Source: Dysidea avara (taxonomy: Eukaryota > Porifera > Demospongiae > Dictyoceratida > Dysideidae). Taken from it: DNA of 64,000 nucleotides. Within the stretch, counting starts at the first letter, position 1; each line of letters begins with the position of its first letter. Where the stretch lies: assembly GCF_963678975.1 (NCBI RefSeq), contig NC_089280.1, positions 16,528,780 through 16,592,779 on the forward strand. Direction: 5' to 3'. This document shows, in pieces, positions 13,989-59,073 of this stretch. The notes beneath the pieces were generated by a model. That model searched no databases. It was not told the origin of the DNA and saw only the letters and a list, made by a program, of their open reading frames with translations. A program made the position numbers and the translations under genes.

Positions 13989-14261
13989 GGAATGTTGCTC
14001 CAAATTTAAAAGACCTCAACAGACATGTCATTAAAAAATATGCTGATATATGGAGGGATGTTGGCATAGAGCTAGGATTGGAACTTTCATTGATTAAAAG
14101 TATTGAACAGAACTATCCTAAAAATGTCACAACTTGTTTTCAAGAGACACTGGATAGATGGTTGAAGTTGGTTCCTGGTGCTACGTGGAAAATGTTGGAG
14201 ATTGCTATTACTAATGTAAATAGGCAGAACCTTCATCTTAATCCTGTTAAGAATGTGTATG
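13989..14261 (+). CDS. Death-domain exon (exon A)
   Basis: The exon is 91 codons long, phase 1 at both ends, with acceptor TCTGTAG and donor G|GTGAGG. The protein runs from NVAPNLKDLNRHVIKKYA through WRDVGIELGLELSLIKSIEQ and WLKLVPGATWKMLEIAITN to the donor. Six-helix Death domains have this pattern: a conserved W in helix 1-2, the G-x-x-L turn, an I-E-x-x-x-P motif before helix 4, then CF..L..WL and TW..L..AI. Death domains mediate homotypic assembly in cell-death and innate-immune complexes. The partner cannot be read from sequence. The short extra open frame past the donor is intron. Confidence 0.85.
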
Positions 14262-15026
14262 GTGAGGATATGTGTATATGTATGCAATAGTATGCTCCAG
14301 CTCTACATATTGTAGACATATTTTATAGTTCTCTTAACTGAGTGCCCTGTAGTACAACAATATATCTAGTTGGAATTAACTACTCCCATATAACCAGTTT
14401 TGAATAGTTTATTGTGGTCATATTGAAGTAATCTTATGTTTCACAGATGCGACAGGTCAGTGTTTCTGCAAAGTAAGAAATAAACGTGCGATCATTTGAT
14501 ATCTTTAAAGAGTGCTGATATACATAGCTAGCTGAATATTGTGCAAGTAGTTATATAAAGGTATAGTAGAAAAGTGAGAAAAATGTAGCTCTTTCACTAG
14601 GGATTTAACCCCTGAAGATCATATAATATAATTATACTGTAATATAGCAGTCAGGTGTAGTTGATTTTCCCAACTTGCCGAGTCATTATATAATTTGGTA
14701 TGGTTCAACTGTAATGCTTTATGAATTTTTCCAACTGTGCACTGAAAATAGAGAGGTTTGCTGGTATCAATATTTAAAATTTCATATTGTTTAAAATGAA
14801 GTTAAGCAGTTTGTACAATGCTCAAATATAATTATTATGTTTCTCCCAAGGTCATAAAACTCTACTGTGCATATAAGAATTGATAAAGCTAAAATACACC
14901 TAATTTTAATATTAACTACTAAATGGTAGTATTAATGGGTTTAGTGTCTTATGTGCATTCATCAGTGCTATTGTGTATGTATAAGGGGTGTAATATCTGA
15001 CATTGATATCCTTTACTGTCATGTAG
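14262..15026 (+). other. Intron 1 of the Death-deaminase gene
   Basis: An AT-rich intron between GTGAGG and CATGTAG. No repeat with clear ends was seen. Confidence 0.6.
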
Positions 15027-15266
15027 AAGAAGATGAAAATGACAATGATTCAGGCTTGGTAGTTATGAATCAATCAACTACAGCACCATCAATTGTTTCT
15101 GACATGGAAATAACTGGCTCACAGCAACCAAGCCTTGATTGTTATGAGTTTAATGAAACCATGGAACCATTGCCAACAGCAACAAATGCTTTACTTGAAA
15201 ATGCAACATCTACTACTGAGGCATCAACACAAACCAGTGCGGTAACTGCTGCTGTTCCTGCTGCTG
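15027..15266 (+). CDS. Acidic Ser/Thr-rich linker exon (exon B)
   Basis: The exon is 80 codons long, phase 1 on both sides, with acceptor CATGTAG and donor CTGCTG|GTAAGG. The peptide begins with an acidic run (EEDENDNDSG) and continues with a Ser/Thr/Ala/Pro-rich low-complexity stretch. It has no fold signature, so it probably is a flexible linker between the Death and ubiquitin-like modules. The frame is open across the exon and matches the phase of both neighbours. Confidence 0.7.
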
Positions 15267-16405
15267 GTAAGGTGATGCAAAAGTATTTGGACAAAGTGCT
15301 ATTTCAGAAATGGCATTTTAATTTGATGAATTAACTAACAACAATTTGTAAGCAAATTAATTAGCACAAGCAAAAGGCCCCTAATCCCTTAGAAGACACA
15401 CAAATTGTATACTTTAATTGTGTAGTGGAAGTAATCATATTACAATGTCTATTTTGCTGAATGGCATACGTAAGAATATTTCTGTCTTATGGTGTCTATG
15501 ATTTAAGAGTAATTAAAAGGTTAGCTATTAGCCATTTACAAACCATGCAATTAACAAGATTGCCCTTGTTTGGTCTGACATTTGTATAATCAGAGAAGGT
15601 GGTATCACCTAATTGTTTTTGTAGTTAAAAAGTTAACAATGTTCTGTTGTTAGGAGATTAACCAGCCAGGTGGAGTCACTGTGCAACATTTCCTTCTTTG
15701 AAATGACTATCTCATGAACTTAGTTCATGAGATTGATTGTCTGGCAGGCATGTCAGATCAACTATTAATTATTGGTCTGACATTTGTCTGGTCATTACTG
15801 AAAAACTGAATAATAATTATGATCACCGATGACTATCCCCTTAAAATTTTTTCCTTAAAAGAGTTTGTACTTTAGGAGACTGTCAAGGTGTGTAAGTAGA
15901 AATTTGATAGTTGTTTGCTCAGTAGGCATAATAATAAATTTTACTCATATTGTATTTTTTTACGAGTATATATCCCTCATAACTAGCCACTGTTTCATCC
16001 ATTCTATGCTAAACTTTGCATGTGCACATACTACTAGTGTGTGTTTAAAATATGGAATTTTCCCACAAAGTGATGTTGTAATACCATCATTCATAGGTTA
16101 TGTTGCTTCACTACTTATTATTACTTGAATCCTTAAGATTAAATTTAAAATACTAGTTTGTTAATGTCACAGAACAGGAGTATTATCAAAGGCTGTACAT
16201 AGCTTTATTGCTTCATGTCTCTCAATTCTCTGAATAGTAATCTGTTAAGAACAACAGTGCATACAGATTTTGGGAACGATCTTGCAGAGGTGTGTACAAT
16301 TAAAGAAACAAAAAAATTGACTCCATAATCATCAGTAGAATATTTAATATTCACATTTTTTTGGCAACATGTACAGCTATGATTTTATTTAGGCTTGATA
16401 CAGGA
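15267..16405 (+). other. Intron 2, first part
   Basis: No gene is seen. One open frame at 15865-16128 lacks domain signal and was not called. Confidence 0.5.
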
Positions 16406-17329
16406 CAGTGGCGTAGCCAGGAAAAATTTTTTACCGAGGCAACAAAGTTTATACATTGACCTAACTGAGAGAGTCTGACTCAACTGATCATAAACACTTT
16501 CAAGCATGGGTGGTACAGCATTTACTGGGATGGATGGAAGAAACTGTTTTAGAATACTCTGAGCGTTTTCTACATGTCATAAGAATACTCCAGCTTAGTT
16601 AATGATACATATGTATACCATGCTAGTTTAATTGTACTCAACGCAAAAAATTGACTTACTCCGGAGATATTTTGAGTGGTCAAGCCATCCATGGACTGCA
16701 ACAGAGGTTATAGTCATGCACACTATAACTTTTATTGATCTGGTGTGATATGTAAGTCAGAGATTACCTCTTTCATATGATGCTCAACTGCACATGCTAA
16801 GCATGTCAAACTAGAGAGTCTGGGAGCATGCTCCTTCAAGGAAAATTTGAAAATATATGCTTTGAAATGGCTATTCTTTGATTGTAACTGCTAATGCATG
16901 ATATGCATGATCAATTAGCTCAATGAAATGCCATGCGGTTGACTCACTGGAACTTTTGAAAAGTAAACGTAAATGATTTAGACCAAGCATGCAGTGTAAT
17001 GAGAACAGTGACTATAGTCTATACTGAATGCTCTATTAGAGTATATTATGATGACTGCTCTATTAGAGTATCTCGATCTTTTTCATACAAATTCAAGTAG
17101 CTGAAAAGTAGTCCAGGTAATGCCAGACCGTGTCACTGTGGGTCCCTGCCCTACTTAGTAGCCATAGATTTTATCTGTGTGGTCAGTACTGGCCGTATTA
17201 AATACTCTCTATAGTAACATTTGAGTAGAAAAATCGGGGGGTCAAAACTCAAGCCTGCTCAGCCTGAATTGTTGAGCATATTTTACCGAGGCAGCTGCCT
17301 CGGTTGCCTCAATGGTAGCTACGCCACTG
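16406..17329. mobile_element. hAT-like element with CAGTGGCGTAGC ends
   Basis: A 924-bp element has ends CAGTGGCGTAGCCAGG and GGTAGCTACGCCACTG. Flanks CAGGA (16401-16405) and CAGGG (17330-17334) form a 5-bp duplication with one mismatch. A second internal inverted pair, TTTTACCGAGGCA, sits near both ends. Internal blocks recur at about 30344-30440 and 32950-33230. A double CTCTATTAGAG motif lies at 17030-17075. No transposase is seen. Confidence 0.7.
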
Positions 17330-17547
17330 CAGGGTACATATTAATTAAACTATCGACCGAATATTGCAGTGTATCATGCTCAATGCACATTAAGTGTAAA
17401 GTTCAAGACCTTTATACGTGTTTGTCACTGTGTTAACAGCTATGTACCTCCAAATAAAAATATTTGCAGTTTGTTCACAATGTGAAAAGTCAGTTGTACA
17501 AAACTTAGGTTCATACTCTTGTTAATTTATAAAATAACCACCTAATG

Positions 17548-18049
17548 CAATGGCGGATCCAGGATGGGGCATTTGGGGCAAATGCCCCCCCCCCCCCCCC
17601 CCCCCTCCCGGCTCACCTTGTGGAGGCGCCAGCCATACTTCTGAGTCTGATTAAAATACTAAATTTTATAGATCAGTTTATAAAACTCATGAAAATATGC
17701 ACATTTTACTAGCATTTATTACAAATTTACTTGAAACCAAAGTAAAACAAAGTCGAACTAACTGTAAAATTGTCATCCAGCACCTTCGTGCGTACTAAGC
17801 GCCTCTAAAATTAATTATCGTGTTGATGTTGGTTAAGACATTCAGAGCCTTTAAAACTGCTTTTAAGACTTCACAACCATCTGCAAAGGCCAAAATGACA
17901 AAAATCAACAGTGAGACACTGCTAAGAGGTGAATATTTGCTGTTTCAAAAATGCAGCAACTAACAAGAGAATATGGCTCTCCCTAGCTAACCACCAACTA
18001 CTTAGCCTGTTTGTGTCCCTCCCCTTGCCAGCTCCTGGATCCGCCCCTG
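17548..18049. mobile_element. hAT5-like MITE, copy 3 (reverse), with poly-C tract
   Basis: A 502-bp element has ends CAATGGCGGATCCAGGA and TCCTGGATCCGCCCCTG and a perfect 5-bp duplication TAATG (17543-17547 and 18050-18054). It is the reverse-complement relative of 8611-9068 across its whole length. A C-run at about 17586-17605 replaces a short GGGGG segment of the other copy. Confidence 0.88.
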
Positions 18050-18204
18050 TAATGTACAAACTGTTTCAGGGCAGTAGTTAGTTAGTTATATGATAAAAAT
18101 TACGTAGTATTTAGCTTGTACAAGTTTATTATTACTGACAACTGATATTCATAGTGCATGTATGCATAGTTTTGTGCATGCAGCACCTTAACCTGGGTGA
18201 TTGC

Positions 18205-18530
18205 CACCATAGGCTGTGGAGACGGGGGAGCCATAGCCCCCCCACTTTTTTGGGACACTATTTGCAAGAAAAGATCGAGATACTCTAATAGAACAGTCAG
18301 GATCTGGATACTCTAATAGAGCAGTCACAGTATTCAGAGAAGCAGTGTAGCAAACTACTTAGCTGCGTATGTGTAGTTATAAATAAGGAGATATAATTGG
18401 TAGAGAGCTAGCAGCTATTGTCAGCAGGCTGTGACCTCTTTTTTTTCTTTTCTTTTTTGGTCTTCAACTTACAGCTGGCCTGGCCCCCTCACTCTTTGGC
18501 CTGCTCCACTGCCCCTGATTGCTACCACTA
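18205..18530. repeat. Repeat fragment with paired G/C-rich ends
   Basis: GTGGAGACGGGGGAGCCATAG on the left and a GGCCTGCTCCACTGCCCC segment on the right suggest the ends of another non-autonomous element. Two ACTCTAATAGARCAGTCA motifs lie at 18276-18327. Borders are uncertain. Confidence 0.35.
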
Positions 18531-18590
18531 TACATGTAAATAATTTCCACTACTATTGTTAACTATGGTATGCCACACTGTTTCATGTAG

Positions 18591-18842
18591 AGCATAAAAT
18601 CAAGGTCAAATTTAAAAATGACCATGAGAGAACTACAGAAGTGGATCATTTATCTGAAGAGATAAAAACAATACACCAAGTAAAGAGTGAAATTGCTGAA
18701 AAAGAGCATGTGTCAAAGGACCGTTTAATATTTACTGTACATGATGAAGAGTTTGATTCTTCAGTAATATTAGAAGATGACGATCTTATAGAAAAATGGA
18801 AACTTGACAAAGGAGGATTCCGAGTCATTACATGTAGTAAAG
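18591..18842 (+). CDS. Ubiquitin-like domain exon (exon C)
   Basis: The exon is 84 codons long, phase 1 at both ends, with acceptor CATGTAG and donor AAAG|GTACCA. The peptide starts EHKIKVKFKND and continues with VKSEIAEKEHVSKDRLIFTV and SSVILEDDDLIEKW. This resembles the ubiquitin fold: strand 1, a helix of the VKxxIxxKE type, then a RLIF strand and a 'L.D..L' turn. No Gly-Gly end is present, so it would be a built-in ubiquitin-like or PB1-like interaction domain and not a conjugated modifier. The sequence alone does not separate Ubl from PB1. Confidence 0.7.
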
Positions 18843-18910
18843 GTACCACAATTTTTTAACATAGTTAATTAGAGAGACTATTGCTCTGGGTACATATCTA
18901 TGTATGTGCG

Positions 18911-21034
18911 TGTGATAGTACTGTGTGTGATAGTACTGTGTGTGTGATAGTACTGTGTGTGATAGTACTGTGTGTGATAGTACTGTGTGTGTGATAGTAC
19001 TGTGTGTGATAGTACTGTGTGTGATAGTACTGTGTGTGATAGTACTGTGTGTGATAGTACTGTGTGTGATAGTACTGTGTGTGTGATAGTACTGTGTGTG
19101 ATAGTACTGTGTGTGATAGTACTGTGTGTGTGATAGTACTGTGTGTGTGATAGTACTGTGTGTGTGATAGTACTGTGTGTGATAGTACTGTGTGTGTGAT
19201 AGTACTGTGTGTGTGATAGTACTGTGTGTGATAGTACTGTGTGTGATAGTACTGTGTGTGATAGTACTGTGTGTGTGATAGTACTGTGTGTGTGATAGTA
19301 CTGTGTGTGATAGTACTGTGTGTGTGATAGTACTGTGTGTGATGGTACTGTGTGTGTGATGGTACTGTGTGTGATAGTACTGTGTGTGTGATAGTACTGT
19401 GTGTGATGGTACTGTGTGTGATGGTACTGTGTGTGATAGTACTGTGTGTGTGATAGTACTGTGTGTGATGGTACTGTGTGTGATAGTACTGTGTGTGATA
19501 GTACTGTGTGTGTGATAGTACTGTGTGTGATGGTACTGTGTGTGTGATAGTACTGTGTGTGATAGTACTGTGTGTGTGATAGTACTGTGTGTGTGATAGT
19601 ACTGTGTGTGATGGTACTGTGTGTGATAGTACTGTGTGTGTGATAGTACTGTGTGTGATAGTACTGTGTGTGTGATAGTACTGTGTGTGATAGTACTGTG
19701 TGTGTGATAGTACTGTGTGTGATAGTACTGTGTGTGTGATAGTACTGTGTGTGATGGTACTGTGTGTGATGGTACTGTGTGTGATGGTACTGTGTGTGAT
19801 GGTACTGTGTGTGATGGTACTGTGTGTGATAGTACTGTGTGTGTGATAGTACTGTGTGTGTGATAGTACTGTGTGTGTGATAGTACTGTGTGTGTGATAG
19901 TACTGTGTGTGATAGTACTGTGTGTGTGATAGTACTGTGTGTGTGATAGTACTGTGTGTGTGATAGTACTGTGTGTGATAGTACTGTGTGTGTGATAGTA
20001 CTGTGTGTGTGATAGTACTGTGTGTGATAGTACTGTGTGTGATAGTACTGTGTGTGATAGTACTGTGTGTGTGATAGTACTGTGTGTGTGATAGTACTGT
20101 GTGTGATAGTACTGTGTGTGTGATAGTACTGTGTGTGATGGTACTGTGTGTGTGATGGTACTGTGTGTGATAGTACTGTGTGTGTGATAGTACTGTGTGT
20201 GATGGTACTGTGTGTGATGGTACTGTGTGTGATAGTACTGTGTGTGTGATAGTACTGTGTGTGATGGTACTGTGTGTGATAGTACTGTGTGTGATAGTAC
20301 TGTGTGTGTGATAGTACTGTGTGTGATGGTACTGTGTGTGTGATAGTACTGTGTGTGATAGTACTGTGTGTGTGATAGTACTGTGTGTGTGATAGTACTG
20401 TGTGTGATGGTACTGTGTGTGATAGTACTGTGTGTGTGATAGTACTGTGTGTGATAGTACTGTGTGTGTGATAGTACTGTGTGTGATAGTACTGTGTGTG
20501 TGATAGTACTGTGTGTGATAGTACTGTGTGTGTGATAGTACTGTGTGTGATGGTACTGTGTGTGATGGTACTGTGTGTGATGGTACTGTGTGTGATGGTA
20601 CTGTGTGTGATGGTACTGTGTGTGATAGTACTGTGTGTGTGATAGTACTGTGTGTGTGATAGTACTGTGTGTGTGATAGTACTGTGTGTGTGATAGTACT
20701 GTGTGTGATAGTACTGTGTGTGATAGTACTGTGTGTGTGATAGTACTGTGTGTGTGATAGTACTGTGTGTGTGATAGTACTGTGTGTGATAGTACTGTGT
20801 GTGTGATAGTACTGTGTGTGTGATAGTACTGTGTGTGATGGTACTGTGTGTGATGGTACTGTGTGTGATGGTACTGTGTGTGATGGTACTGTGTGTGATG
20901 GTACTGTGTGTGATGGTACTGTGTGTGATAGTACTGTGTGTGTGATAGTACTGTGTGTGATGGTACTGTGTGTGATAGTACTGTGTGTGATAGTACTGTG
21001 TGTGTGATAGTACTGTGTGTGATAGTACTGTGTG
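18911..21034. repeat. 15/17-bp minisatellite (GATAGTACTGTGTGT)n
   Basis: About 2.1 kb of tandem units come in two lengths, GATAGTACTGTGTGT and the same plus GT, with a GATGGTAC variant in runs. The variant order from 19341 to about 19830 recurs from 20137 to about 20626, a shift of 796 bp, which shows a segmental duplication inside the array. All three - strand frames are open because no unit contains a stop there. This is not coding. It lies in the intron between the ubiquitin-like and deaminase exons. Confidence 0.97.
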
Positions 21035-21256
21035 CATACATAAGAATGCAAATACATGACAGGAACATTGATGTATATAATACAGTAACTAAAAAGTATC
21101 AGTCAAAGCCCATGCAATATTGCTTAGCGATCATTCTAATGTGATATGTATTTGAATAACATAATGTCTTTCTAAAATGTTTTATTTGGGCTGTTATAAA
21201 GTAAATAAACTACATTTTTGTTTACATAAATAGTTATATGTGGTACGTTTTTGCAG

Positions 21257-21290
21257 TGATAGAATTAAAGGAAGCTACGAGAGAAAAACA
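21257..21290 (+). CDS. Small joining exon (exon D)
   Basis: After a polypyrimidine tract and TTTTTGCAG, the exon adds V-IELKEATREK and ends at CA|GTACGT (21290), in phase with the next exon. If the GTGAGT site four bases later is used instead (end 21294), the last codon is Tyr and the phase does not fit exon E. The peptide is helical and highly charged. Confidence 0.5.
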
Positions 21291-21369
21291 GTACGTGAGT
21301 TATGGATTTTTGTTTTAAATATTAGTGTTTAAACTGACTACCTTCATCAAAGTTTAATACATAGCAGTA

Positions 21370-21735
21370 TAGCTGCCTATCGTAGGCCATCTGTTTCAAA
21401 ATGATTATTTGATATGTTCAATGAATTATTTGGCGGTATATTCAATAAATCATTTGGCATATTCAATGATTTTAGTGTTTTATTCTGTGAACTATATTTT
21501 TACAACTTATATATTTTGTGTTGGTATATAGCTCGATATATAGTTTGTGTTAGACATTGTTATCATAATCGGGTTGTTGTTAGTATCGCCATAGAGCTTA
21601 TGCAGGAGGTGTGGTAATTATTTCTAAGCGCCTAGCTCTCACAAATGTAAGACACACATTGCCATTTGCAGGGGGAGAGAGAGAACCATCATTAGTAATA
21701 AAATGATACATTCAATACATTATTAGTCCTTGGTC
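21370..21735 (+). repeat. Left member of a ~360-bp inverted pair
   Basis: It matches 28890-29245 in reverse complement. Shared landmarks are ATAGCTGCC...AGGCC, a series of TATTCAATGAATTATTTGG-like blocks, GGGTTGTTGTTAGTATCGC and TCTAGCTCTCACAA. The pair encloses 7.2 kb. Confidence 0.6.
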
Positions 21736-21835
21736 TCATGCGACCACTGTCAGATCAAGTAAAATGAGATCTTGTGGGCATGAAAAAGAGTCTGTACATG
21801 TAAAAAAAAAAGACTAACAACAACAGCAACAAACA

Positions 21836-22649
21836 AGACACACGGTAGTGTGTCGTGCGGCCCAAGAAGCCGGCGCGTAACACCCGTGAGTATATTGACA
21901 GGAAGAAAATGCAATTTTCGCACCTCCGTAGCTCTGTGCTGCCTTGATGAAACAAGACGAGTTTTGCTGTGGATACTCCCTCCAACATCAGCACTCCACA
22001 TTCCAAATTTGAGCGCAATCGCTTCTCGCATTCCCGAGATATGCGACTTCAAAAAGTGGATTAGTTTCTTCGTTTTGTTTTTCTTCTTATTTTTCTTCCT
22101 CTTGTCGCACACTTACAAAAACTGCTATAAAACGCGAACACCATATCCGATTGCCTTGAAATTTTGCACAAAGAAGGGGGTATAAAGGCGCATCTCGGTA
22201 CCAACTTTGGCTGGAATACGATAAACAGGCAAAGAGTTATGAGTGATTATTCACGAAAAATAACACCAATATGTTGTCACACCTACAGCGTAAACCGCGT
22301 ATGGGAAGAAGCTGAAAATCGGTGGGTGAATAGGTTAACTATTGAACCTCAAACCTTTTGTGGTTTGAAAGAAATCGAGCTTAAAACCAGAAAGATACAA
22401 CGAAAAAACCAACAGTGTGTAACAATTACACAATCGAGATTAGCTATTAAAAAACGACTGCTTGCCACGCCTACCAGATAGACTGCTTGGGGTAATGCTT
22501 TGAAAATCACTGTTCAGATGGAGTAATCATCTTAGAATGGTGTAGAAGAATCAGACTTAAAGCCACGGAGTTATAACATGAAATCCAACTTGGTGCAGCA
22601 AGTGCGACATCGAGATACTCTAATAGAGCAGTCATCCTAATAGAGCAGT
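21836..22649 (+). repeat. Composite repeat A: head
   Basis: The head begins at the CACGGTAGTGTGTCGTGCGG block and contains GCCGGCGCG, GACAGGAAGAA and GATATGCGACTT. It also holds an open frame at 22164-22481 (GGIKAHLGTNFGWNTINRQR ... WVNRLTIEPQTFCGLKEIEL). It ends with two CTAATAGAGCAGTCA motifs directly before the satellite. It is nearly the same as 55816-57290. The TTAA at 22557-22560 is the empty site of the insertion seen at 56557-57194. Confidence 0.85.
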
Positions 22650-24835
22650 CACCCTGAAGAGAATTCAAGAGATCAGCTAGAAACAAGTAACCTGTATAGA
22701 GATCAGCTACAAACAAGTCACCCTGTAGAGAGATCAGCTAGAAAAGTTACCTTGTGGGGAGTTCATGCAACTATGGAAAGAGATAGTTCAGCTAGAAGAA
22801 ATCACCTTGTAGAGTTCAGCTACAAAGAAACCACCATGTAGAGAGTTCAGCTACAAACAAATCGCCCTGTAGAGAGATCAATAGCAGAAGTTACCTTGCA
22901 GAGAGTTCAGCTACAAAGAAACCATGCATCATGTAGAGAGTTCAGCTACAAACAAATCACCTGTAGAGAGATCAGCTAGAAGAAGTTACCTTGTAGAGAG
23001 TTGAGCTACAAAGAAATCATCATGTAGAGAGTTCAGCTACAAACAAATCTCCCTGTAGAGAGATCAACAACAAGAAGTTCCTTGTAGAGAGTTCAGCTTC
23101 AAACAAATCACCCTGTAGAAAGATCAGCTAGAAGAAGTCACCTTGTATAGAGAGTTCAGTTACAAAGATACCACCATGTAGAGAGCTCAGCTACAAACTA
23201 GTGACCTTGTAGAGACATCAGCTAGAAGAAGTTACCTTGTAGAGAGTTCAGCTACAAAGAAACCACCATGTAGAGAGTTCAGCTGCAAAGAAATCACCCT
23301 GTAGAAAATTCAGCCACAAATAAATTGCCTTGTAGAAAGATCAGTTAGAAGAAGTTACCTTGTAGAGAGTTCAGCTACAAAGAAACCATTCTGTAAAGAG
23401 CTCAGCAGCAAACAAATCACCTGTACAGAATTCAGCTACAAACAATCACCCTGTAGAGAGATCAGCTAGAAGAAGTTACCATGTAGGGAGTTCATGCAAC
23501 TATGGAAAGAGATAGTTCAGCTATAAGAAATCACCTTGTAGAGTTCAGCTACAAAGAAACCATGATGTAGAGAGTTCAGTTACAAACAAATCACCCTGTA
23601 GAGAGATCAATAGAAGAAGTTACCTTGCAGAAAGTTCAGCTACAAAGAAACCATCATGTAGAGTGTTCAGCTGCAAAAAAATCACCTGTAGAGAGTTCAG
23701 CTACAAACAAATCTCCCTGTAGAGAGATCAGCTAGAAGAAGTTTCCTTGTAGAGAGTTCAGCTACAAACAAATCAATTTGTAGAAAGATCAGCTAGAATA
23801 ATTTCACTTTGTAGAGAGTTCGGTTGCAAAAAAACCACCATGTAGAGAGTTCAGCTACAAACTAGTGACCTAGTAGAGACATCAGCTAGAAGAAGTTACC
23901 TTGTAGAGAGTTCAGCTACAAAGAAACCATTCTATAAAGAGTTCAGCTGCAAACAAACCACCTGTACAGAATTCAGCTACAAACAAATCAGAAATCAGCT
24001 AGAAGAAATTACCTTGTAGATAGTTCAGCTACAAACAAATCAGAGATCAGCTAGAAGAAATTACCTTGTAGATTGTTCAGCTACAAACAAATCACCCTGT
24101 AGAAAGATCAGTTAGAAGAAGTTACCTTGTAGAGAGTTCAGCTACGAAGAAACCATTTTGTAAAGAGCTCAGCTGCAAACAAATCACCTGTACAGAATTC
24201 AGCTACAAACAAATCACCCTGTAGAGCAATCAGCTAGAAGAAGTTATCTTGTAGATAGTTCAGCTACAAATAAATCTCCCTGTAGAGAGATCAGCTATAG
24301 AAGAAATTACCTTGTAAAGAGTTCAGCTACAAAGAAACCACCATGTAGAGAGTTCAGCTGCAAAGAAATCACCCTGTAGAAAATTCAGCCACAAACAAAT
24401 TGCCCTGTAGAAAGATTAGTTAGAAGAAGTTACCTTGTAGAGAGTTCAGCTACAAAGAAACCATTCTGTAAAGAGCTCAGCTGCAAACAAATCACCTGTA
24501 CAGAATTCAGCTACAAACAAATCACCCTGTATAGAGATCAGCTAGAAGAAGTTACCTTGTAGAGAGTTCAGCTACAAAGAAACCACCATGTAGAGAGTTC
24601 AGATGCAAAGAAATCACCCTGTAGGAAATTCAGCCACAAACAAATTGCCCTGTAGAAAGGTCAGTTAGAAGAAGTTACCTTGTAGAGAGTTCAGCTACAA
24701 AGAAACCATTCTGTAAAGAGCTCAGCTGCAAACAAATCACCTGTACAGAATTCAGCTACAAACAATTCACCCTGTAGAGAGAGCATCTAGAAGAAATCAC
24801 CTTGTAGAGTATTCAGTTACAAAGAAACCACCATG
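22650..24835 (+). repeat. Composite repeat A: ~30-bp satellite array
   Basis: About 2.2 kb of diverged 30-31-bp units of the type GTAGAGAGTTCAGCTACAAA plus AAACCACCAT, alternating with GTAGAGAGATCAGCTAGAAG plus AAGTTACCTT and a variant ending AAATCACCCT. The three variants follow each other in a loose higher-order pattern. No separate spacers exist, so this is a satellite and not CRISPR. Confidence 0.95.
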
Positions 24836-25044
24836 GAGATTTCTGTAATCAGTACCACTATGGAGATTTCTGTAATCAATATAATGTATTATATATATAA
24901 TTTGTACATTTACTGATAAAATATTTAAAGTACATCTACTTCATCTTTTCTTCTTCCTGTGGAAAAGAAAAAAAGATAGGTTAGAAAAGTCCCAAAGCCG
25001 GCCATTGGCTGGCTTTGGGGTATACAAATACAAAAAGAAATGAA
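24836..25044 (+). repeat. Composite repeat A: tail
   Basis: The tail GGAGATTTCTGTAATCA, a TATATATA run, AATTTGTACATTTACTGATA and a CTTCATCTTTTCTTCTTCCT block lead into the palindrome. The same tail precedes 59477 and 63607. Confidence 0.8.
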
Positions 25045-25374
25045 ATCTAATCCAAAACAGCCAAGCTATAAAAAAACAGTGCGGCCCTCAAAAAGGCTAT
25101 GGTGAAAAAAGATGTGAAATCCAAGGTGGCGGCCAAGAAATGGCTGTGATGGTAGGTTAATGGTAAAAATTTTAATAATGACAATTCAGGTGAATCTTGT
25201 GCCAATTGACCAAGCGGCACCAAAATTCACCTGAATTGTCGTTATTAAAATTTTTACCATTAACCTACCATCACAGCCATTTCTTGGCCGCCACCTTGGA
25301 TTTCACATCTTTTAACCATAGCCTTTTTGAGGGCCGCACTGTTTTTTTTACAGCTTGGCTGTTTTGGATTAGAT
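25045..25374. repeat. 330-bp long palindromic element, copy A
   Basis: The ends ATCTAATCCAAAACAGCC and GGCTGTTTTGGATTAGAT are perfect complements. The arms stay complementary nearly to the centre (CAATTCAGGTGAAT... / ...ATTCACCTGAATTG). It would form a hairpin as RNA. The other full copies are at 59477-59794 and 63607-63936. Confidence 0.95.
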
Positions 25375-26149
25375 AATAATTACAAGACAAAATTAAGTCA
25401 AGTGCTCGGTTGATCAGTCACTATAATTCCTGGCCAAGAAAATCTTTTACTGTATCAGTTTAACAGCAACAAGGGGTAGTAACTTCCATACCATCAACTG
25501 ATGCGCTTGCTACTTGATACCTCGATAAATTGAAGCTGATTTGTTGCGAGGAAGATCTTACTGAAACGCCAGCTATTGAGTGGGCATGGATGTCCAGATG
25601 TACTGTATGGAGATGTATATAACTACACCCGGTCTTTATACACATGAGCAACAAAAATCTTATAAAAAGTCAAGAGGATTCAATCAAGTTGTAAATGGAT
25701 AGGTGAGTGATAGTGTTTGCACTGTCAGTTGATCCATAGTTCTTGTTTACAGCACTTGTAAAACATTCTCAAAGCCTTTCCTTACCCTGAAGGTATGGGG
25801 TTTCAGTTAAGGCCATCATTATTAAATTCCTTGTTTCCCATCACCACCCACCTCAATTTTTAGGTAATCACACCAAATTTTAATTATTTGATTATAGATC
25901 ACGTGAATGCACTATTTCATGATAGAAGGAGGCACAGAATGACCAAGCTTTAAGGTAAATGCATTAGCCATGCCTATAAACATAGCAGAAGGGTGGAAGA
26001 CCCTCCACTCTTGTTCAGCTAGGTGCATGGGTGTACAGTCCTGCATGCAGCATGGCAGCCTTCAAGACTGAGATACTCTAATAGAGCAGTCAGAGACTGA
26101 AATAACAAGGGTCAAATGTATAATTAATAATCACCTCCCACTCACATCA
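25375..26149. other. Unassigned stretch
   Basis: No gene was recognised. A single GATACTCTAATAGAGCAGTCAG motif lies at about 26071-26094. Confidence 0.5.
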
Positions 26150-27480
26150 GTTTTTGTTCAGTTGGGTGATGGGAAACAGGGAATATAATTTTGATGGCCT
26201 AAACAGGGTGGCACTTTTCGAAGTGTCCCCTTTTCTGAAATCAGCAAAATAGATTTCACCACACCAAAACATAAGTGCAAGCAAGCTGTCACTGAAGGTT
26301 GTGGAGAGCCCACTACAAAAAGTAAGAAGTTTTCTATTCCTAAGTCTACTGATTCTGATTTAGCCACTTTTCATAACAAAATGTCTCAAGGGCTGGGAAA
26401 AGCAGTTGTCCTGTGATTGATGGCAGAGTATAATGACACGTATGTATATCCCACAAACAGAATTTGGGGTTTTATCTAAACCTTTAACAGGCCTGCATGA
26501 TCCCGCAAGAGCAATGGAACTGACATACAATGACCTTTTGACACATTAACCAAACAACCATGGTGGAGGAGCATACAAGAGATCGGAGTGAATGCCACAC
26601 TTGGTTTGACTAAGTGCGGGCAGGATAACAGTATCCAAGTTGCATGAAGCCTTGCACACTAGCAGCCATCTGTTTCTCTGATCAAAGTTATATGCTATCC
26701 TGAGTTTACATCCTCTGCATGCCAGTATGAGTGCAAGCATGAAGATATTGCCAGGGTAGCAAATACAGAAAAAATGCAAGCTTGTCATGAAAAATTTATG
26801 GTGATACAATGTGGCCTTATTTTGGATCCAGAATTTCCATTCATGTGCCTCACCAGATGCATGGTCTAGTCTATTGTGTTAGAAATCAAGTGGCCTTTTT
26901 CTTGCAAAAATAAGGCAGTCTCTGAGGCCATTCTTGATAATCACTCCTTTTCCTTAGAACATGACAGTAGCACTTTAAGAAGATTACATGCATGTACTAT
27001 TATCAAGTTCAACTGCAAATGAAACTATGCCATGTACAATACTGCAATTGTGTAGGAAGATGAAATAATTTTACCAGAAAGTAGAGCTGGATTCTGATTT
27101 TGTTGACTCTGCTATAAGGAACCAATAATGCCACTACATTCAGGCAGTACAGTTATTAGTGATGCAGATGGTACAAGCTCAATTGTTGATGCAAACAATC
27201 TACTGACTCTCAGGTTGGTGAGGTGGATGCCACTGCTAGCTTTAGGAACAATGATGTCCATGCTTCTTCAAGATCTTCTAATGACCAGCAAGGGTACTAC
27301 TATTGCGGTAAAGGGGAAGACTGTGATGACATAATTTGCTGTGATAGCAGGGACTGTGTGATAAAATGGTTTCATTTTTGTGCTTGCAAATAACTGGAAA
27401 AGATGGCCAAGAGGAAAATATTATTGTCCAGACTGCCACAAGCTAAGGAACTCAAGGAAATCAAAGAAGACAAAAATTCA
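26150..27480 (+). pseudogene. Decayed YqaJ-type nuclease with C-terminal PHD finger
   Basis: Broken + strand frames show the start of a YqaJ-like nuclease domain near 26540-26660 (an RDRSECHTWFD block, then VRAGRIT, then a KLHEALHTS block). A CASPDAW-like motif lies near 26840-26880, close to the GASPDG motif of the family, with further remnants after it. Near 27300-27450 a PHD finger follows (YYCGKGEDCDDIICCDSRDC, then KWFHF, then YYCPDC) with one or two frameshifts. YqaJ-family exonucleases accompany the transposase in ISL2EU (IS4EU) DNA transposons, and the neighbour on the other strand fits that. Many stops show it is dead. Confidence 0.65.
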
Positions 27481-27619
27481 CTGATTATTTTACATGTACA
27501 TTTCAATAACATAAATATCAACAATGTACATTATTTCAGAATCACATAACTAAGGGTACATTATATAAAAAGATAGTTACAATGGTACTACTGAGTCACA
27601 ACAATATATTACATAGTGC

Positions 27620-28040
27620 AGCTATTTTATCAATAGGAGATATGCTCTCCTTCATCACCTTTGAGCATATTAGTAGAAAGAATTGATTGCAATATCGAAA
27701 ACTTTTGCCTCACCAGCCTGATAACTCTTTCAACATGTATCCTAACTTGAGACAGCTGGCAAGCAGTGTCAATTTCTACTTGTAAAAGGACGTATCTTGA
27801 CTTCTGCACAGTGCAGCCTCCAGGCAACAGTGTTGAAAGCAGAGCACAATTTTCAGTCAAATGTACATCGGATACCCTTCCACCCCAGCTTTTTGAGTGA
27901 TGCCTATTAAAAGTTTGCATGTGTTATGCTTCTTATAGTTCAACCAAGTTTTGAGTCCTTGTCATGCCAAATCTTGATGTGGAATATTTAAGCATAATTT
28001 CATCAAAGTAATTAAGAGCTGATCAAACATGGCACAGCCA
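27620..28040 (-). pseudogene. Decayed DDE_Tnp_4-type transposase
   Basis: The - strand reading includes TWLNYKKHNT, then SKSWGGRVSDVHLTEN, then LLSTLLPGG, and ends with QVRIHVERVIRLVRQKFSIL. These match the order of DDE_Tnp_4 transposases: a TWS.YK.HNT block, a GGR.SD block, then RIHVER.I. The frame is broken at least twice. It converges on the YqaJ-PHD fossil, and both together look like an ISL2EU-type element remnant. Confidence 0.75.
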
Positions 28041-28189
28041 GAAAAATGGCATTCAGGTATATAGCTAGCAAAACTGCAAAAGACGGCAGCCCGGTATAAA
28101 ATTTTACCTGCTTATTGTTGTCTTCTAAACTCTGTCTGTTGGCTGACTGTAACCAATTGACCTTCATGTTCAGTTTGGCTTCTCTTGTT

Positions 28190-28610
28190 CTCAGGAGTTC
28201 AAGGCCTTATACTTCTGGAGTAGTTCTTCATTATTTCTTGTGTATAGTTCATCATAGTCTAATTTAAATATTTCTTCAGCTCGTTGTAATCTGTTCAGTT
28301 CATCCAACCTCAACATTTTTCTTACTCTAGCTCATACACCTTCTCTTGTTCGTCTTCTCTTAACAATCTCTCCCTCTCATCTTCACATCTCTAGAGGTCC
28401 TCTCCACCTCTAACCTTTGCCGGCTGTTCTTCTCCTTCCAGCTTTCTTGCTTCTTCTGCTAGACTCTGCACTCCTTTGCTTTTTCCTTTTGCTATTCAGC
28501 TATTAGAGAGTTCTCGGTCTGTTCCAGTATCCTGGAGGCTGTTCTTCTTTGAAAATCTGTGACTAACCGAGCTTCCATTTTTGTCTCATTGGACTATCAA
28601 CATGTTTGAA
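28190..28610 (-). pseudogene. Decayed charged coiled-coil coding sequence
   Basis: The - strand gives broken frames rich in Glu, Lys, Arg and Leu, for example MEARLVTDFQRRTASRILEQ, then KMLRLDELNRLQRAEE and LLQKYKALNS. It looks like a coiled-coil protein fragment, perhaps of a ciliary type or part of the neighbouring transposon. I do not recognise a specific gene. Confidence 0.35.
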
Positions 28611-28889
28611 GATAGAAGGGACCTAGTTCGATACAAAATGGTTGTTAGCTACTCTTTTTCTCTATCAATGACTGCATGTTTACTGGCTACATATGACCAT
28701 ATGCTTCACTGGGTAGCTAGCTAGCTAGCAATCCTTTCTGTTGACATGCAGCACTGTTATTTCTTAGATCTGGATCTTTTGGGAAGTATAAAAACTTAAC
28801 CCATTTCCATTCGCACATAGATTAGAACAATTCACAGCTCTTTACTATTACTCCTGTCTGGCCTCTTTCATCCCCTACGGCAAATGGCG

Positions 28890-29245
28890 GTGCAACCCTA
28901 ATGTGTGTCAGCTTAAACTTGTGAGAGCTAGACACTTAGAAATAATTATCACGCCCTCTGATAAGCTCTACAGCGATACTAACAACAACCCAATTATGAT
29001 AATGATACCTAACACCAATATTGATACCTAACATCATTATTGATAATGATACCTAACACCAATGCAAAATATATAATTCACAAAGATATAGTCCACTAAA
29101 TAAGACACTAAATCATTGAATATACCAAATCATTTATTGAATATACATTGAACATATCAAATAATTAATTGCACATACCAAATAATTCATTGAAAATATC
29201 AAATAATCATACAATTGGCCTATCATAGCTGCCATATGGCAGTAT
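28890..29245 (-). repeat. Right member of the ~360-bp inverted pair
   Basis: This is the reverse-complement relative of 21370-21735, with extra tandem TAGGTATCA-type units near 29000-29060. It lies a few hundred bases from the transposase fossil, so the pair may be the terminal repeats of that element. Confidence 0.55.
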
Positions 29246-29332
29246 GGTATTGCCTGGAGCTTATTAGCACCGAAGCCTTACGGTGTATACAAGCTCCTGG
29301 AATTACAGTGCATGCAATAAAGTATATATTGT

Positions 29333-30961
29333 ATCATATACTGTATAGTAGGGTTCTCCTCCAAAATATAAAGGGCACCTGCTGCCACTAAAAGCCATTA
29401 TAGAAACTTCCTCCATGACATTAAATATAGTATTTAAAAGTAACAAAAACAAGAAAATATCAAACTGTTAAACTACCAAAACCTGGATTTAGTCTGTCTA
29501 TTGCCAGACTACAGTCAAAAGGCTAGAAACTAAATAGAACATAGTACAACCTCTATTGTAGACCAGAATGACAACACATGTGTGGCATGTGCCTTTAGGG
29601 TTCTGATGAGTGTTTGCCCTCTTCACCTTGTCTTTACCTTTCATCTCCAATCTTACTGGTTGTCATCTTCATGTAATTTTGAAGCAGTAATTTTTGGTAT
29701 CAAACCTTTTCTTAAAGGTGTGTACATAGTCACCACAAATTATTTGGAGTACTTATGTTAACTGTAAAAGGGAATAGACATCTTCATTTATAACGATTGT
29801 ATTTGCTGCAGAAAACAAAGCACAGCAAATATGTAACCATGCCCCTAATTGATCACATAGGACATTTCTCACCTGAGGCTGAGACCAGCATTAGAGTGAG
29901 ATACCAGTTAAACACCGATTACCTTAGTTTCAAAATAATTGATGAAGCAACTATTCAAACTTGACCACCACTCAATGTTTGAAAATGACGTGTAAGCCCT
30001 CATATTTGAAATGGATTGTGGCATCACTCAATTGAGGCTACTACTAAAGGTGTGGTGTTTAACCAAGTAAATACAGTACTGTAGTAGTAAAGCTGTCATC
30101 CTAATACAACAACCATGTATGATATTATAATAGAACAGTCATGCATATTGCTATATGTCTGATATTTGCTGTGGTGCACAAAATATAGAACAAATCTATG
30201 CGGGAAAGAATTGGCTAAACTTGCGTAGTCAAAAACTATTAATTTTAAAATGAAGTAGGGATCCAAGTGATAAAAAAGCAGCAAAACAAGATAATGGTTT
30301 TTGGTGATATATTCGGACAGGAAATCTCAAAGCTTCATGATCCCTCAAGGAGCAGAGCCCAGTAATTTTGAGGCCATCCATGGACTACAATGGAGGACAT
30401 AGTCATACACACTTTTTATTGATCTGATGTGATATATAAATCAGAGCTGCTTTCATGCAATAATGCAATACAATAGTATGTATCATATATTAGGGATCAT
30501 GGCTTTTCTGGCCAAAATATCATCCCAACCAACCTCACAATACCTTCATGGCATCTTGGCAGTATATATTGGTGAGGTATGAGCAAGTTCAAAAGTGTCT
30601 AACAGAGCAGCCAAAAATACTTCCAATAATTGTTACAGAATTTAGTTTTTTATATTTGAATTTTCTTCTGACTGACTAGCTAATTGCAGCGTGCATAAGC
30701 ATGCAAAACTAGGAGGTCTGAACTAGTTTGAAATAGCTAAAATGGCTTAGACCAAGCAATGTATTTAGAATAGTGGCTGTATTCTACTATGGTTTCATTA
30801 GAGTGTAATGGCGAGTGCTCTATTAAAAAAAAAAAAGTATCTCAACCTTTTGCAAACTTCTTGGAGCTAGCTTAACAATGGTCCAACCAATACTGGACTA
30901 TACTGGACTGGCTGGACTGTGGGCTCTGGCCCTGTTATATCCCTACTATACAGTATATGAT
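29333..30961. mobile_element. 1.63-kb element with perfect 21-bp inverted ends
   Basis: The left end begins ATCATATACTGTATAGTA and the last 21 bases are its exact complement over the full 21 bp. Inside are a partial R1 5' end (about 30500-30670), a block shared with 16406-17329 (about 30344-30440), and a CTCTATTA motif broken by poly-A (30815-30842). No intact transposase is present. Confidence 0.65.
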
Positions 30962-32479
30962 TCGTGGCTGTTAAAGTAGTGCACTTAAAGCATTGTTACA
31001 AGCTTGCACTTTGGTTTTCTGTGCATCATTAAACCCACAATTGAAGCTTTCTGCATACTGGTATTGTTACACATATGTTTGGCCTCGATTTACACCTTGT
31101 CATTCTTCTTATGTACATAGGTTATCCATTGTTGAAATTCACAAGGCCCAATATAAATACACTTATGAAGCATGCTTGCAGTTTCCTACACTTACAGGTG
31201 AATCACTGAAGTGGTTGTAGCCCTGCTGCTCTTGTTCTTGTGTGTATATGTCAGGCAAATTACTTGCGCCCATGTTACTGTACAACTATTACATGTATCA
31301 GTTTCACACCTCAGATCAAAAAGGAGCTGCCTGGGCTACATTTGCAATGTAGCCAGGGATAAAACTGGACAGCAATTATTATAGACAGTAAGGCCAAAAT
31401 TGATTGTGGGGGATTGATTATAAGGCTCACATGATTAGTATGCGTGACCTGGATTTGGCCATGTAAAACACTAATGTTTTGTATGCTAAGGTAAGAACAT
31501 AATGCTACAGCAAACATTTCCCCCAGTATTGACCTGCTCATCTTTATGAACCAGTTTTGATTAGGGTATATGCATGCATGCACAAACACACATAAAAGAT
31601 GCATGGTAATGATAAATTTAGCATGTACTACTGGTATCACTCCAGCAGAGAATTTCGCCTTACAATCTGTAGATTAAAACCAAACACAAAGATATGTACG
31701 TACCTCGGGGATTAATTTGATAATTATACCATCAACAGTACTGATTAAAACATTAAATTGCATAACCAAAATTCTCCATCGATTTCTCCGTTCATCATAC
31801 ATAGCCAAACATAGCCAAAAAGTACCAGCTGCTGACCCATAATTGAATCTTTCAGGCATGTATATATATATATATATACGTTTATCTAGTGGTTGCACTC
31901 ATATTGGGTGATTGATCACCCAGCATGGATCTGAAGAGTTACATAATAGCTGTAACACAGGGCATTTGGGCTTTTACCTGATATGCATTCCCTAGCCCTC
32001 GGGCTTTTGGGTACACATATCAAGCAAAGCCCTCATTCCCATGTTGCAACTATTGATTTTAGACTACAACAAGTTTGGTACTGAAATTTGATTGGCTGAA
32101 AACGTGGTCTCTAAATCCTGTAGTGCCATGCTCATGTCCAATAGGGACCATGCTCTGAGGCAATACGAAACATGATAATTACGCACCAGTAACATTGGCA
32201 ATGCACAGACATTTGTAACAATACTGAATTAGAGGGAGGTGTAATTGACTTGTTTGTACCAAGCAGCTGTCAAGGCACAACAACAGCAACAATGAGTTGT
32301 AGTCCAGTACTTCTCGAAACATATGCCTGTAACATTGGCAGTGCATGAGCGTTTAAATGGGTAGCAACAGCCACCCTGAAGTTCCGCAGTGTAGAGGGGT
32401 TGTTTCTAGTAATTAATGATACATTTCTCATTTACAAGCAGCTGTCAACTCAAGGTACAATAACGAGTTGTAGTCTAAA
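30962..32479. other. Unassigned intronic stretch
   Basis: No gene is recognised. A short (TA)n run occurs at about 31860-31878. Small open frames on both strands lack domain signal. Confidence 0.45.
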
Positions 32480-32582
32480 TAGGTTAGAAGTCAAGAACCA
32501 CTGGACTCTACGAGATTTAGAAGTCCCTCAGGCCCTTAGCGAGTTTTCTATATCCTGTAGAACCCTGGTTCTTGACATCTAA
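32480..32582. repeat. Small palindrome
   Basis: The arms GTTAGAAGTCAAGAACCA and TGGTTCTTGACATCTAAC enclose about 65 bp. It could fold into a hairpin. Confidence 0.6.
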
Positions 32583-32602
32583 CTATTATATATTGATATT
32601 AG

Positions 32603-33428
32603 TGCTGGGCGATATAGATTTTTCTTATGTCATATGTCATGGCAAAATTTATTCATGATATGAATATATGTCACGATATATACCAATATTTTAACTTGAA
32701 TATTTATTTTCTTTGTTTCAGATGGTTTTCAAGTTTGTAGCTACTACTATACTGTACACAAAACACAGGAATAAGATCATTTATTAGCTAATACATCATA
32801 TGCACTTATACAGCTAGTTAAAATGAAAATGTTGATTTGCATACTGGAAATTTACAATACTTAGTCTTCCGGTTCACCTACAACTTAATCTCCAATAGCT
32901 TCATCATCTTGATCTATTATAATATTTAGAGATTATCAGTTTACAATAACTACATGTTCAAAGCACATGCAAGCTGCTAGGAGGGGCATGCTCCCCAGGT
33001 AATTTTTTAAAACAGATGCATTGAAATGGCATTGGAGGCTTTTTTACATACACAGTCTCTTTCTCCTTTCTTTTTTAATATGAAGATAACTTAGACCAAG
33101 CAGTATAATTAGAGCAATGGTTATACATTCTACTGACTGTTGTATTAGAGTATCGCACTGACTGCTCTATTAGAGTATTTCGATCTTTCTACAAAAACCA
33201 TTGCATACAGATCTACGTAGATAGCGCCTACAAAACACCCAACAGTATGCCACACCATTGACGTAGGTGAGACGTGGGTGCAGCAGGAGTAATGGCGAAA
33301 CTGGAGATGCTATCTTATGAGCTCACGTTGTACTGCTTAGATCACGTGCGCTATATCGCGATATAATTTCAAGCTATTGTATCACGATATAAAAACAATA
33401 TGTCGTATGTCAGCTATATTGCCCAGCA
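32603..33428. mobile_element. Element with GTGCTGGGCGATATA ends
   Basis: The left end GTGCTGGGCGATATAGA and right end TATATTGCCCAGCAC are inverted repeats flanked by TA on both sides. Repeated TATCACGATATA-type blocks mark both subterminal regions. A fragment related to the interior of 16406-17329, with two CTCTATTAGAG motifs (33133-33184), is nested in it. No coding region is seen. Confidence 0.6.
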
Positions 33429-33496
33429 CTAATCGATATCATGATTAAGATTAACCAACAGCCCTAATATCACAGTGCATGGGTCATAACCATGAT

Positions 33497-34335
33497 TTAT
33501 GGCGTAAGTGATCAATTATCGAACAAGTTTATACTTTACTTCATAAATATCTCCAGGAAAGTAGTACCAACCTCGAATTTTCATCAGGAGGTAGCACCTT
33601 TCTCGTAGAATACCTCACATAAGTTTGAACAATAGTATCCGATTAGTGTCCGTGTTATGAGTGGATTTCTGCTTTCGTATAATACGAATAATCAAACACC
33701 GGTACCTATTATTGAATGCTCATTAATTTCCATTGATCAATTATCAAACGTTTTGCACCTTTTCTACTATGGTGACCTTAGTACAACCTACGTACTCACT
33801 CTTAATTATTATATCAATGTGTTAACTGAAGTACCATGATACTGTAACTGAAGTATAGTTTTGATACAAGCATGCACTTGTGAGTTACAAGGGCAAATCG
33901 TGTAGTGATAAATGCATATACAGTAAAAAATCAGCACATTACGAACAATAACACAGTCTTATCATTCTTGTTTACAACAACCCCTTCTGTACAGTTTTCA
34001 TGGATACATCTTTCACACGGGAAAACCGCGATAAACAGTCGGCAAATTCTGTTGCTAAGTTATGCTCGAGTTGTAGTTCTTTCACGGAAATCCCTGTGTT
34101 CTTTTTCTTCATTTCTTCTCCAGTGGTGATGAGTATCAAGACTGCTGTGATATCCACACATAAACTCTAAAGGGTGGAAAACTCATTAAGAATAGGCTAC
34201 ACTATTGAAATTCTCCATTTAAACACCTTACGAGTATGTGGAATAACATTGTAAACTTCCGAATATGTTACATGATTTTAATGTTCGATAATAGGTACCA
34301 TTTGATAATAGGTCACTTACGCTAAACTATAAACA
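33497..34335. mobile_element. Element with GCGTAAGTGA ends
   Basis: GGCGTAAGTGATCAATTATC on the left and GATAATAGGTCACTTACGC on the right are inverted. No coding region is recognised. Borders are approximate. Confidence 0.5.
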
Positions 34336-34655
34336 AAAGAATAAAATGACCTTGAACTAATTCTGTTCCCTTCGGGAAAGAGTAAGTGTGGCAATATTTT
34401 GATTTTAGAAGTGATAGAGGAAGTGTAATGTTTAACAGCTAGGTCTGAGGGAAATAGTGTGCGTAATTATCATACTCAGTACATAATGCTGTACATGTAT
34501 ATTGACTATGAGGTCATAAACTTTTTGAAGGTTAATTATTGTAATAAAATTATTTTGCATGCAATTATCACAATATGCACTATACATTAAAAGCTATATT
34601 CCACATCACTAGTGTTAATCTGCAATTCTTGTACTTTATTTTTATCTGGTTACAG

Positions 34656-35958
34656 GCTCTGTGATGTGCTGCAAAAGTCATATGAGGAGTGGTTTCTACA
34701 AAAACATGGAGCTTTTAATTCAGATGATAGTGGAGACCAACGTATCAAAGTTATTTCAGCCATGATAAGAGAGAAAATAACAGCCGAAAAAGAAGAAAGA
34801 TTTAAGGTTATACTAATGAGTGCTGGTACAAAATATCACGATAACGTCAAGTGCTCAAGTAAGGATTTCAATGGTATCTGTGACGGCCATGCAGAAGCTC
34901 TCTGTTATGAAACAATAGTTCACTACTTCTTAAAGCTTATACGAAAAAGAAACTTCAATGTTTTGTTGCTGTCTAGAGAAGGGTTTCAGCTTAATCCAGA
35001 ATACAGGTTTCACCTATTCATTTCACATCCTCCTTGTGGTTTCATGACAAATGAAAGTGAGCCATTGATATCATGGAAAACACCTTTTGTGGAGGAACCC
35101 CATGTCCTCACATGTAGCTCAAAGATTATACTCAACTCATACTTAGGAATTCAAGGCCCACTTATTTGTTTGTTTGCTGAACCTGTATACATTAGTGAAG
35201 TTATCGTACTAAATACTGATGATACAATCATTGAAAAAGCACACAAAAAATTTGAAGAAGCTGCAAACAAGTTGGCACAACAGTCTTTATTTTCATTTCA
35301 TCCACCGGAAGTTAAGGTACTAAAAGCTCCACAACTTTTTGGTATCGAATACATAGGTGCTAAAAATCATAAAGCTCAAGAGGGATCATTGACATGTATT
35401 GCTGTGTTGCGAAATCCAGGTGATGATTGCAATCCTGTATTTTCTGTACGCGTTTTAAAAAAGAACAATGAAAAGATACAAGGGAGTAAAGGAACTGAGA
35501 AAGTGCATGATAATGAAAAGTTATTTGACATTAATGACCTGGTTTGGTCTAAACATCCAATAAAACTGCATTTTAAAGAATTTGATGAAATACACAAAGC
35601 AATAATCAATAATCTCATGATATTTCAAGAACTTATCAACCTAAGGAAAAAACTAGAAGAAGATTGTGGACATACCACATCAAATCTAAAGGAGAAAATA
35701 GATAAAACTTCAGCAGAAGTCACAGAACTTGTTAAAGAAATGAACTATAAGCACTACAAAGAAGCCAATTTAGCAGCAACAGATTTTCTTCATGATGTAA
35801 TCAACCTTAAGGATCAAAAAGAAGAATTAAGAATGATAGAAGATATTCAGGTATTGATAAAACGGCTTAGCAAAAATGGGACAGGCTACATTCCAATGTG
35901 TTGCTGCTGGAAAAGGTATCACACCTTTTTACAGCTAATAGAAAACAAAGCAAAGTAG
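34656..35958 (+). CDS. ADAR/ADAT1-type adenosine deaminase exon (exon E)
   Basis: The acceptor GGTTACAG precedes an uninterrupted 434-codon exon ending in TAG at 35956. Counting from its first full codon (LCDVLQKS), H78-A79-E80 form the HAE motif (34888), P126-C127-G128 the PCG motif (35035) and C153 the second zinc Cys in TCSSK (35113). GIQGPLICLFAEPVYISEVI follows. This is the signature order of the adenosine deaminase/editase domain that turns adenosine to inosine in RNA; His and two Cys bind zinc and Glu is the catalytic acid. No dsRNA-binding domain is present, unlike classical ADARs. Residues from about 300 to 434 are charged and predicted to be coiled coil, ending in a Cys cluster MCCCW. 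Confidence 0.88.
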
Positions 35959-41534: not shown

Positions 41535-41565
41535 AAGGTGTTTGGTGTAAGTCTTGTCTTCTTCC

Positions 41566-43527: not shown

Positions 43528-43543
43528 CTTGTTAAACTTTGCG

Positions 43544-47544: not shown

Positions 47545-47614
47545 ATATACTTCTGATCACTAACCTTTTCATAGTTTCTGTAATAATTATACAGGATCAC
47601 ATTTATTTTGACAG

Positions 47615-59052: not shown

Positions 59053-59073
59053 GAGATTTCTGTAATCAATATA

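Follow-up and report, generated by a model that had tools for sequence, protein, structure and literature searches.

A 64,000-nucleotide stretch of the genome of the sponge Dysidea avara (NCBI RefSeq assembly GCF_963678975.1, contig NC_089280.1, positions 16,528,780 to 16,592,779 of the forward strand; hereafter the window) carries five + strand exons, here called A to E, between positions 13989 and 35958. The best reading of this DNA is a protein in which a Death domain, a linker, a ubiquitin-like (Ubl) domain and an ADAR-type deaminase follow one another in that order, and a Death-to-deaminase fusion appears likely from the sequence. The fuller proposal, that one gene encodes all of these parts including an ADAR-derived deaminase core, and that its product would be a Death-domain-recruited effector with a repurposed deaminase, is given a probability of about 0.4. 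Exons A, B, C and E are real, and exon E, as judged by its alignments, is an ADAR-family deaminase core with an intact zinc site and catalytic Glu.

Exons and domains of the locus

The five exons have AG/GT ends and, joined in phase, give 699 open codons closed by a TAG stop at 35956-35958, which bears out an earlier sequence-only reading that had placed five + strand exons here. That reading had also called their phases compatible. This holds for exon A (13989..14261), exon B (15027..15266) and exon C (18591..18842), which form a symmetrical chain, each of phase 1-1, but from C to E it hangs wholly on exon D (21257..21290), one of 1094 bridging candidates: exon C ends in phase 1 and the terminal exon E (34656..35958) starts in phase 2, so that a further exon is required between them. 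Exon D, a putative 34-bp bridging exon of phase 1-2 with the peptide VIELKEATREKQ, is placed there by its splice and coding rank. Splice scores, which come from consensus matrices not trained on Dysidea avara, are mixed; the donors of exons A and B rank among the best 0.5% of GTs in the window, and the acceptor of exon E likewise among its AGs, while the acceptor of exon A is mediocre (top 13.6% of AGs only) and the donor of exon C reaches only the top 8.7% of GTs. When stop-to-stop frames of at least 80 codons were listed for the region, the one containing exon E measured 455 codons; 60 sequences of 64 kb simulated with the dinucleotide composition of the window gave a longest stop-free stretch of 200 (mean 144), but the simulation leaves out minisatellites, and the minus-strand frames that these have in the window are longer. 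Among the 593 upstream candidates for a first exon with a start codon, none stands out. A tblastn search of the gene model against the window returned its own exons and four weak matches (best E 0.016 over 19 residues), and Rfam at gathering scores and a tRNA scan of the whole window gave no matches.

Exon A is assigned weakly to the Death domain: its match to Pfam Death (PF00531; E 0.0012, profile positions 17-77 of 86) reaches 19.3 bits against a gathering score of 22.6, and the best PDB match, to FADD, has E 0.067. Exon B, recognized by its open frame and splice ends, encodes a linker with an acidic start that then becomes Ser/Thr/Ala-rich; in Pfam the stretch around it matched only DUF4651 (E 0.17). 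Exon C probably encodes a ubiquitin-like (beta-grasp) fold. Pfam gives ubiquitin at E 0.045 and PB1 at E 0.14, PDB polyubiquitin is matched at E 6e-4 when its four repeats are taken together, no single repeat being significant, and a predicted model of low confidence (predicted local distance difference test, pLDDT, 55) has the order strand-strand-helix-strand-strand. Ubiquitin, ISG15 and further Ubls make up most of the 50 Foldseek matches listed, out of 384, for this model, and E is at least 0.37 in all 50. For exon C the list of Pfam matches, which extends to E 10, contains no TRADD-N family. Both domains had been named with more assurance in the sequence-only reading; the Pfam Death match and the ubiquitin-like strand order and neighbours speak for its assignments, which on the scores given here are weaker than stated.

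An ADAR-type core with a shortened RNA-engaging insert

The A_deamin profile (PF02137) finds exon E at E 5.2e-12 (46.3 bits, above the cut-off of 27), in agreement with the deaminase exon proposed earlier, and the first 186 residues alone, which hold approximately the whole core, give E 4.2e-11. In the PDB, exon E matches ADAR2 (E 1.9e-9), and a pairwise alignment with the human protein contains 91 identities in 327 aligned positions. The HAE, PCG and second zinc Cys that had been picked out from the letters align with human ADAR2 H394/E396, C451 and C516 (ADAR2 numbering throughout), so that the zinc ligands and the catalytic Glu are kept; their codons lie on the + strand at 34888..34896 (His-Ala-Glu), 35035..35037 (first zinc Cys, of PCG) and 35113..35115 (second zinc Cys, of TCSSK). 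T375, K376, D392 and K519 are also kept in the pairwise alignment. In a three-way alignment, ADAR1 and ADAR2 agree in 156 columns; exon E keeps 45 of these and has gaps in 27. No relative of the exon E protein was found in the viral contig and genome contig collections, nor by tblastn in a plasmid collection, no NCBIfam match was better than E 0.04, and a structure of exon E predicted without an alignment was unusable (mean pLDDT 36).

No homology was detected for the C-terminal half of exon E. Its YKEANLAATDF resembled ADAR2 YHESKLAAKEYQ, and an assignment to the ADAR C-terminal half was dropped since a profile of ADAR1 and ADAR2 gives -2.3 bits there; a Pfam Cor1 match in the same half (E 0.003-0.006) is below the cut-off and was put down to resemblance to a coiled coil. 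A single exon of 1.3 kb (34656-35958) holds all of the deaminase part, an arrangement that would fit the capture of a retrocopied ADAR.

In ADARs the insert between the zinc cysteines holds the base-flipping and 5' RNA-binding loops (PMC11334849). Roles of residues and loops were assigned from that paper, PMC11120146 and PMC8809894, and the residue lists are those of PMC11120146. The corresponding insert of exon E (35038..35112, + strand) is 25 residues long, compared with 64 in ADAR2, 44 of the 64 being missing and 5 others inserted. The first part of the ADAR2 5' loop (to about residue 468) still aligns, and residues 469-512, which hold E488 and R474-R481, are without counterpart; this single gap takes in the base-flipping loop, the dimerization helix and the RNA-contacting end of the 5' loop. 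The site for inositol hexakisphosphate (IP6), which ADARs and ADAT1 require (PMC11334849), is altered as well: R400, R401, K519, R522 and W523 correspond to Y, E, K, L and N in exon E, with only K519 kept. In a mutational scan of ADAR2 the extremely intolerant positions were R400, R401, K519, R522, S531, W523, D392, K483 and the zinc residues (PMC8809894). D392 is kept in exon E, S531 is replaced by P, K483 falls within the gap, and N391 is also replaced. For the C-terminal IP6 contacts the alignment, unreliable in a half whose homology to ADAR was not detected, matches K629 and K672 and leaves Y658, K662, Y668, W687 and K690 unmatched. Together, the loss of the insert and the replacements at the IP6 site argue against ordinary editing of double-stranded RNA (dsRNA) from adenosine to inosine (A-to-I), and such editing by exon E is unlikely. 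A Pfam scan of exons A, B, C and E, the N-terminal exon(s) not having been located, found no dsRNA- or Z-DNA-binding domain.

Catalytic residues that are kept alongside RNA-engaging parts that are lost suggest a core put to new use on a substrate that is smaller, or presented in another way, with a Death-domain assembly and the Ubl domain holding it in position. In the mechanism proposed here, the Death domain would recruit the protein into a death-fold signalling assembly, the Ubl domain would couple it to ubiquitin-type partners, and the deaminase would be a local effector whose substrate is not long dsRNA but, for example, free nucleotides or RNA that is single-stranded or structured. What we infer in this scheme is the splicing of C to E by way of D, the recruiting function of the Death domain, the role of the Ubl domain, catalytic activity, the substrate and the assembly. 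It may be, though as a complete history this is doubtful, that in one lineage of ADAR-derived deaminases the dsRNA-engaging insert was largely lost, together with most of those IP6 contacts that can be aligned, and that these enzymes came to serve Death-domain complexes as effectors; deamination of a new substrate, single-stranded RNA or nucleotides, would then be their output in immunity or cell death. A role as immune or cell-death effector, of which the sequence-only reading had suggested the immune one, would be reasonable for a Death-domain protein. The suggestion in that reading of A-to-I editing under Death-domain signalling is weakened by the 44 lost insert residues, which include the base-flipping loop, and by the replacement of R400, R401, R522 and W523; a related activity on another substrate or a non-catalytic role would still fit.

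The join from C to E and alternative readings

Exons C and E are 15.8 kb apart, in a repeat-rich interval that contains minisatellites of 2.1 kb and 2.2 kb and a nested inverted-repeat element. Directly 3' of exon C, at 18905-21034, the 2.1-kb array consists of alternating TGTGTGATAGTAC units (32-bp period, 67 copies, 92% matches). The nested inverted repeats lie between D and E at 25045-25374, with arms of 93, 39 and 32 nt that are 97-98% complementary, and resemble a small hairpin or terminal-inverted-repeat element. Bridging candidates were defined as open stretches of 6-300 bp that join phase 1 to phase 2 (n = 1094 in the interval). Exon D ranks ninth among them by splice score alone and first by the sum of splice and codon scores, the training set of the latter being A, B, C and E, with D excluded, and 1 of 1544 reverse-strand decoys from the same interval scores as high. 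The rank and decoy tests support exon D, short of proof.

The distance between C and E, the two large minisatellites and the inverted-repeat element, and phases that are incompatible without an additional exon would also fit two genes, one for Death domain, linker and Ubl with a last exon of its own, the other an ADAR-like deaminase gene with its first exon between C and E. There is no in-frame ATG between the upstream stop and the acceptor of exon E (in the top 0.5% of the window's AGs), and the first Met comes after 35 residues, within the aligned deaminase core, so that exon E most likely needs an upstream exon. That exon could belong to a second gene: between C and E there are 285 candidates running from an ATG to a phase-2 donor, 9 with a donor score of at least 6, and there are 1105 possible last exons after C, among them 44 whose acceptor is as good as that of D; in 17 of the 44 a polyA signal lies no more than 500 bp away. 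A separate first exon directly before 34656, which the sequence-only reading had named as a finding that would speak against it, is neither established nor dismissed by these 285. Two genes are nevertheless somewhat unlikely, given the presence of a phase-1-to-2 exon with coding-like content (exon D, first of 1094) and the shortness of the alternatives; none of the 12 best of the 285 first-exon candidates exceeds 95 bp, no domain scan having been made of these.

A single gene could also carry its deaminase as a non-catalytic scaffold, in the manner of the ADAD proteins, which are described as catalytically inactivated (PMC9989829). The loss of the base-flipping loop and of R400, R401, R522 and W523 at the IP6 site, in a family whose ADARs and ADAT1 require IP6 (PMC11334849), would suit such a scaffold, but from a dead enzyme one would expect some catalytic residues to have disappeared, and H394, E396, C451, C516, T375, K376, D392 and K519 are all kept where only 45 of the 156 columns shared by ADAR1 and ADAR2 are. 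The scaffold is therefore unlikely, although it is weaker than the repurposed core only because all catalytic residues remain. At the other extreme, homology to the ADAR catalytic core and the intact zinc site agree with a canonical dsRNA A-to-I editor under Death-domain control, the principal proposal of the sequence-only reading, which becomes very improbable with the base-flipping loop gone, the 5' RNA-binding loop shortened, the IP6 contacts lost and no dsRNA- or Z-DNA-binding domain in the scanned exons, the N-terminal exon not having been found. Slighter still is the chance of a decaying gene copy whose reading frame is open by accident. The transposon- and repeat-rich surroundings, some mediocre splice sites and a deaminase contained in a single exon, as might be expected of a retrocopy, would be in keeping with decay; the 699 open codons of the five-exon join and the kept catalytic residues are not.

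Several observations weigh against the single Death-to-deaminase gene preferred here. The C-to-E link hangs on one putative 34-bp exon in 15.8 kb that is ninth of 1094 by splice score. Leave-one-out coding scores, rough because trained on only 685 codons, are small for A (2.2 bits in 90 codons), B (5.7 in 79) and E (10.5 in 433), and only C is clear (23.4 in 83). AATAAA and ATTAAA are absent within 1.2 kb 3' of the exon E stop, the first lying at 37189. The Death and Ubl assignments are both below Pfam cut-offs, and with R400, R401, R522 and W523 replaced, fold or activity may be lost. Finally, the five-exon join is predicted from genomic DNA, and the architecture from the locus of one species.

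Known systems and surrounding repeats

With ADAR1 and ADAR2 (PF02137) the predicted protein shares the catalytic core with HAE, PCG and the second zinc Cys, together with T375, K376, D392 and K519. It differs from them in the Cys-Cys insert (25 residues without the base-flipping loop, against 64 with it), in the replacement of R400, R401, R522 and W523, in a C-terminal half without detectable homology, and from the ADAR family in general in that dsRNA- and Z-DNA-binding domains were not found in exons A, B, C and E. ADAD-like proteins and ADAT1, the latter set beside it by description, belong to the same adenosine deaminase (AD) domain family (Grice and Degnan, 2015, PMC4323055); ADAD-like proteins have one dsRNA-binding (dsRB) and one AD domain (PMC4323055), whereas here Death and Ubl domains would precede the deaminase. 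Sponge ADARs are described with Z-DNA-binding (ZB), dsRNA-binding and deaminase domains, and ADARs in general as dsRNA editors of the Metazoa that have not diversified dramatically (PMC4323055). The survey, which covered sponges and ctenophores, picked sequences by ADAR-associated domains (AD, dsRB, ZB) and distinguished ADAD-like (one dsRB), ADAR2-like (two dsRB) and ADAR1-like (ZB and dsRB) classes (PMC4323055), none of which a Death-Ubl-deaminase protein would fit.

In the sponge Amphimedon, 357 TRADD-N proteins have been reported, most of whose architectures combine N-terminal Death-superfamily domains with a variable C-terminus that includes enzymes (PMC8195603, eLife 2021). The Dysidea protein would likewise have an N-terminal Death-superfamily module followed by a variable C-terminus, possibly an enzyme, but TRADD-N follows Death in the Amphimedon proteins and a probable ubiquitin-like domain does so here. 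This theme is counted as support for the Death-deaminase architecture, and the locus is best read as a variant of the Death-plus-variable-effector theme already known from sponges. ADAR does not occur in the main text of PMC8195603, as distinct from its figures and source data. No Death-ADAR fusion was found in the accessible text of the literature searched, including PMC4323055, PMC9989829, PMC3482391, PMC8195603 and PMC6723221 and leaving aside figures, supplements and most subscription papers; novelty of the Death-Ubl-deaminase architecture is thus likely, not established. If the fusion is transcribed, it would link catalysis of ADAR descent with death-fold signalling in a lineage of early animals and provide a natural test of how well an ADAR core can function when the RNA-engaging insert and most IP6 contacts are missing.

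A 31-bp minisatellite family (TGTAGAGAGTTCAGCTACAAA...) forms three arrays in the window, at 22668-24839, 57329-59056 and 60624-60904, and a 17-bp CTAATAGAGCAGTCACC repeat at 22620 and 57258 precedes the first two. A BEL/Pao-type retrotransposon occupies 38889-44470 on the - strand in three open stretches, with matches to DUF1759, DUF1758/aspartic protease, reverse transcriptase (weak), Peptidase_A17, integrase zinc-binding and DUF5641. Further downstream lies a transposase-like gene (47612-49829, + strand), the first open stretch of which matches ALS2CR8 and MULE/ZSWIM RNase H-like domains; another of its open stretches has a weak SWIM match below the cut-off (E 0.0046).

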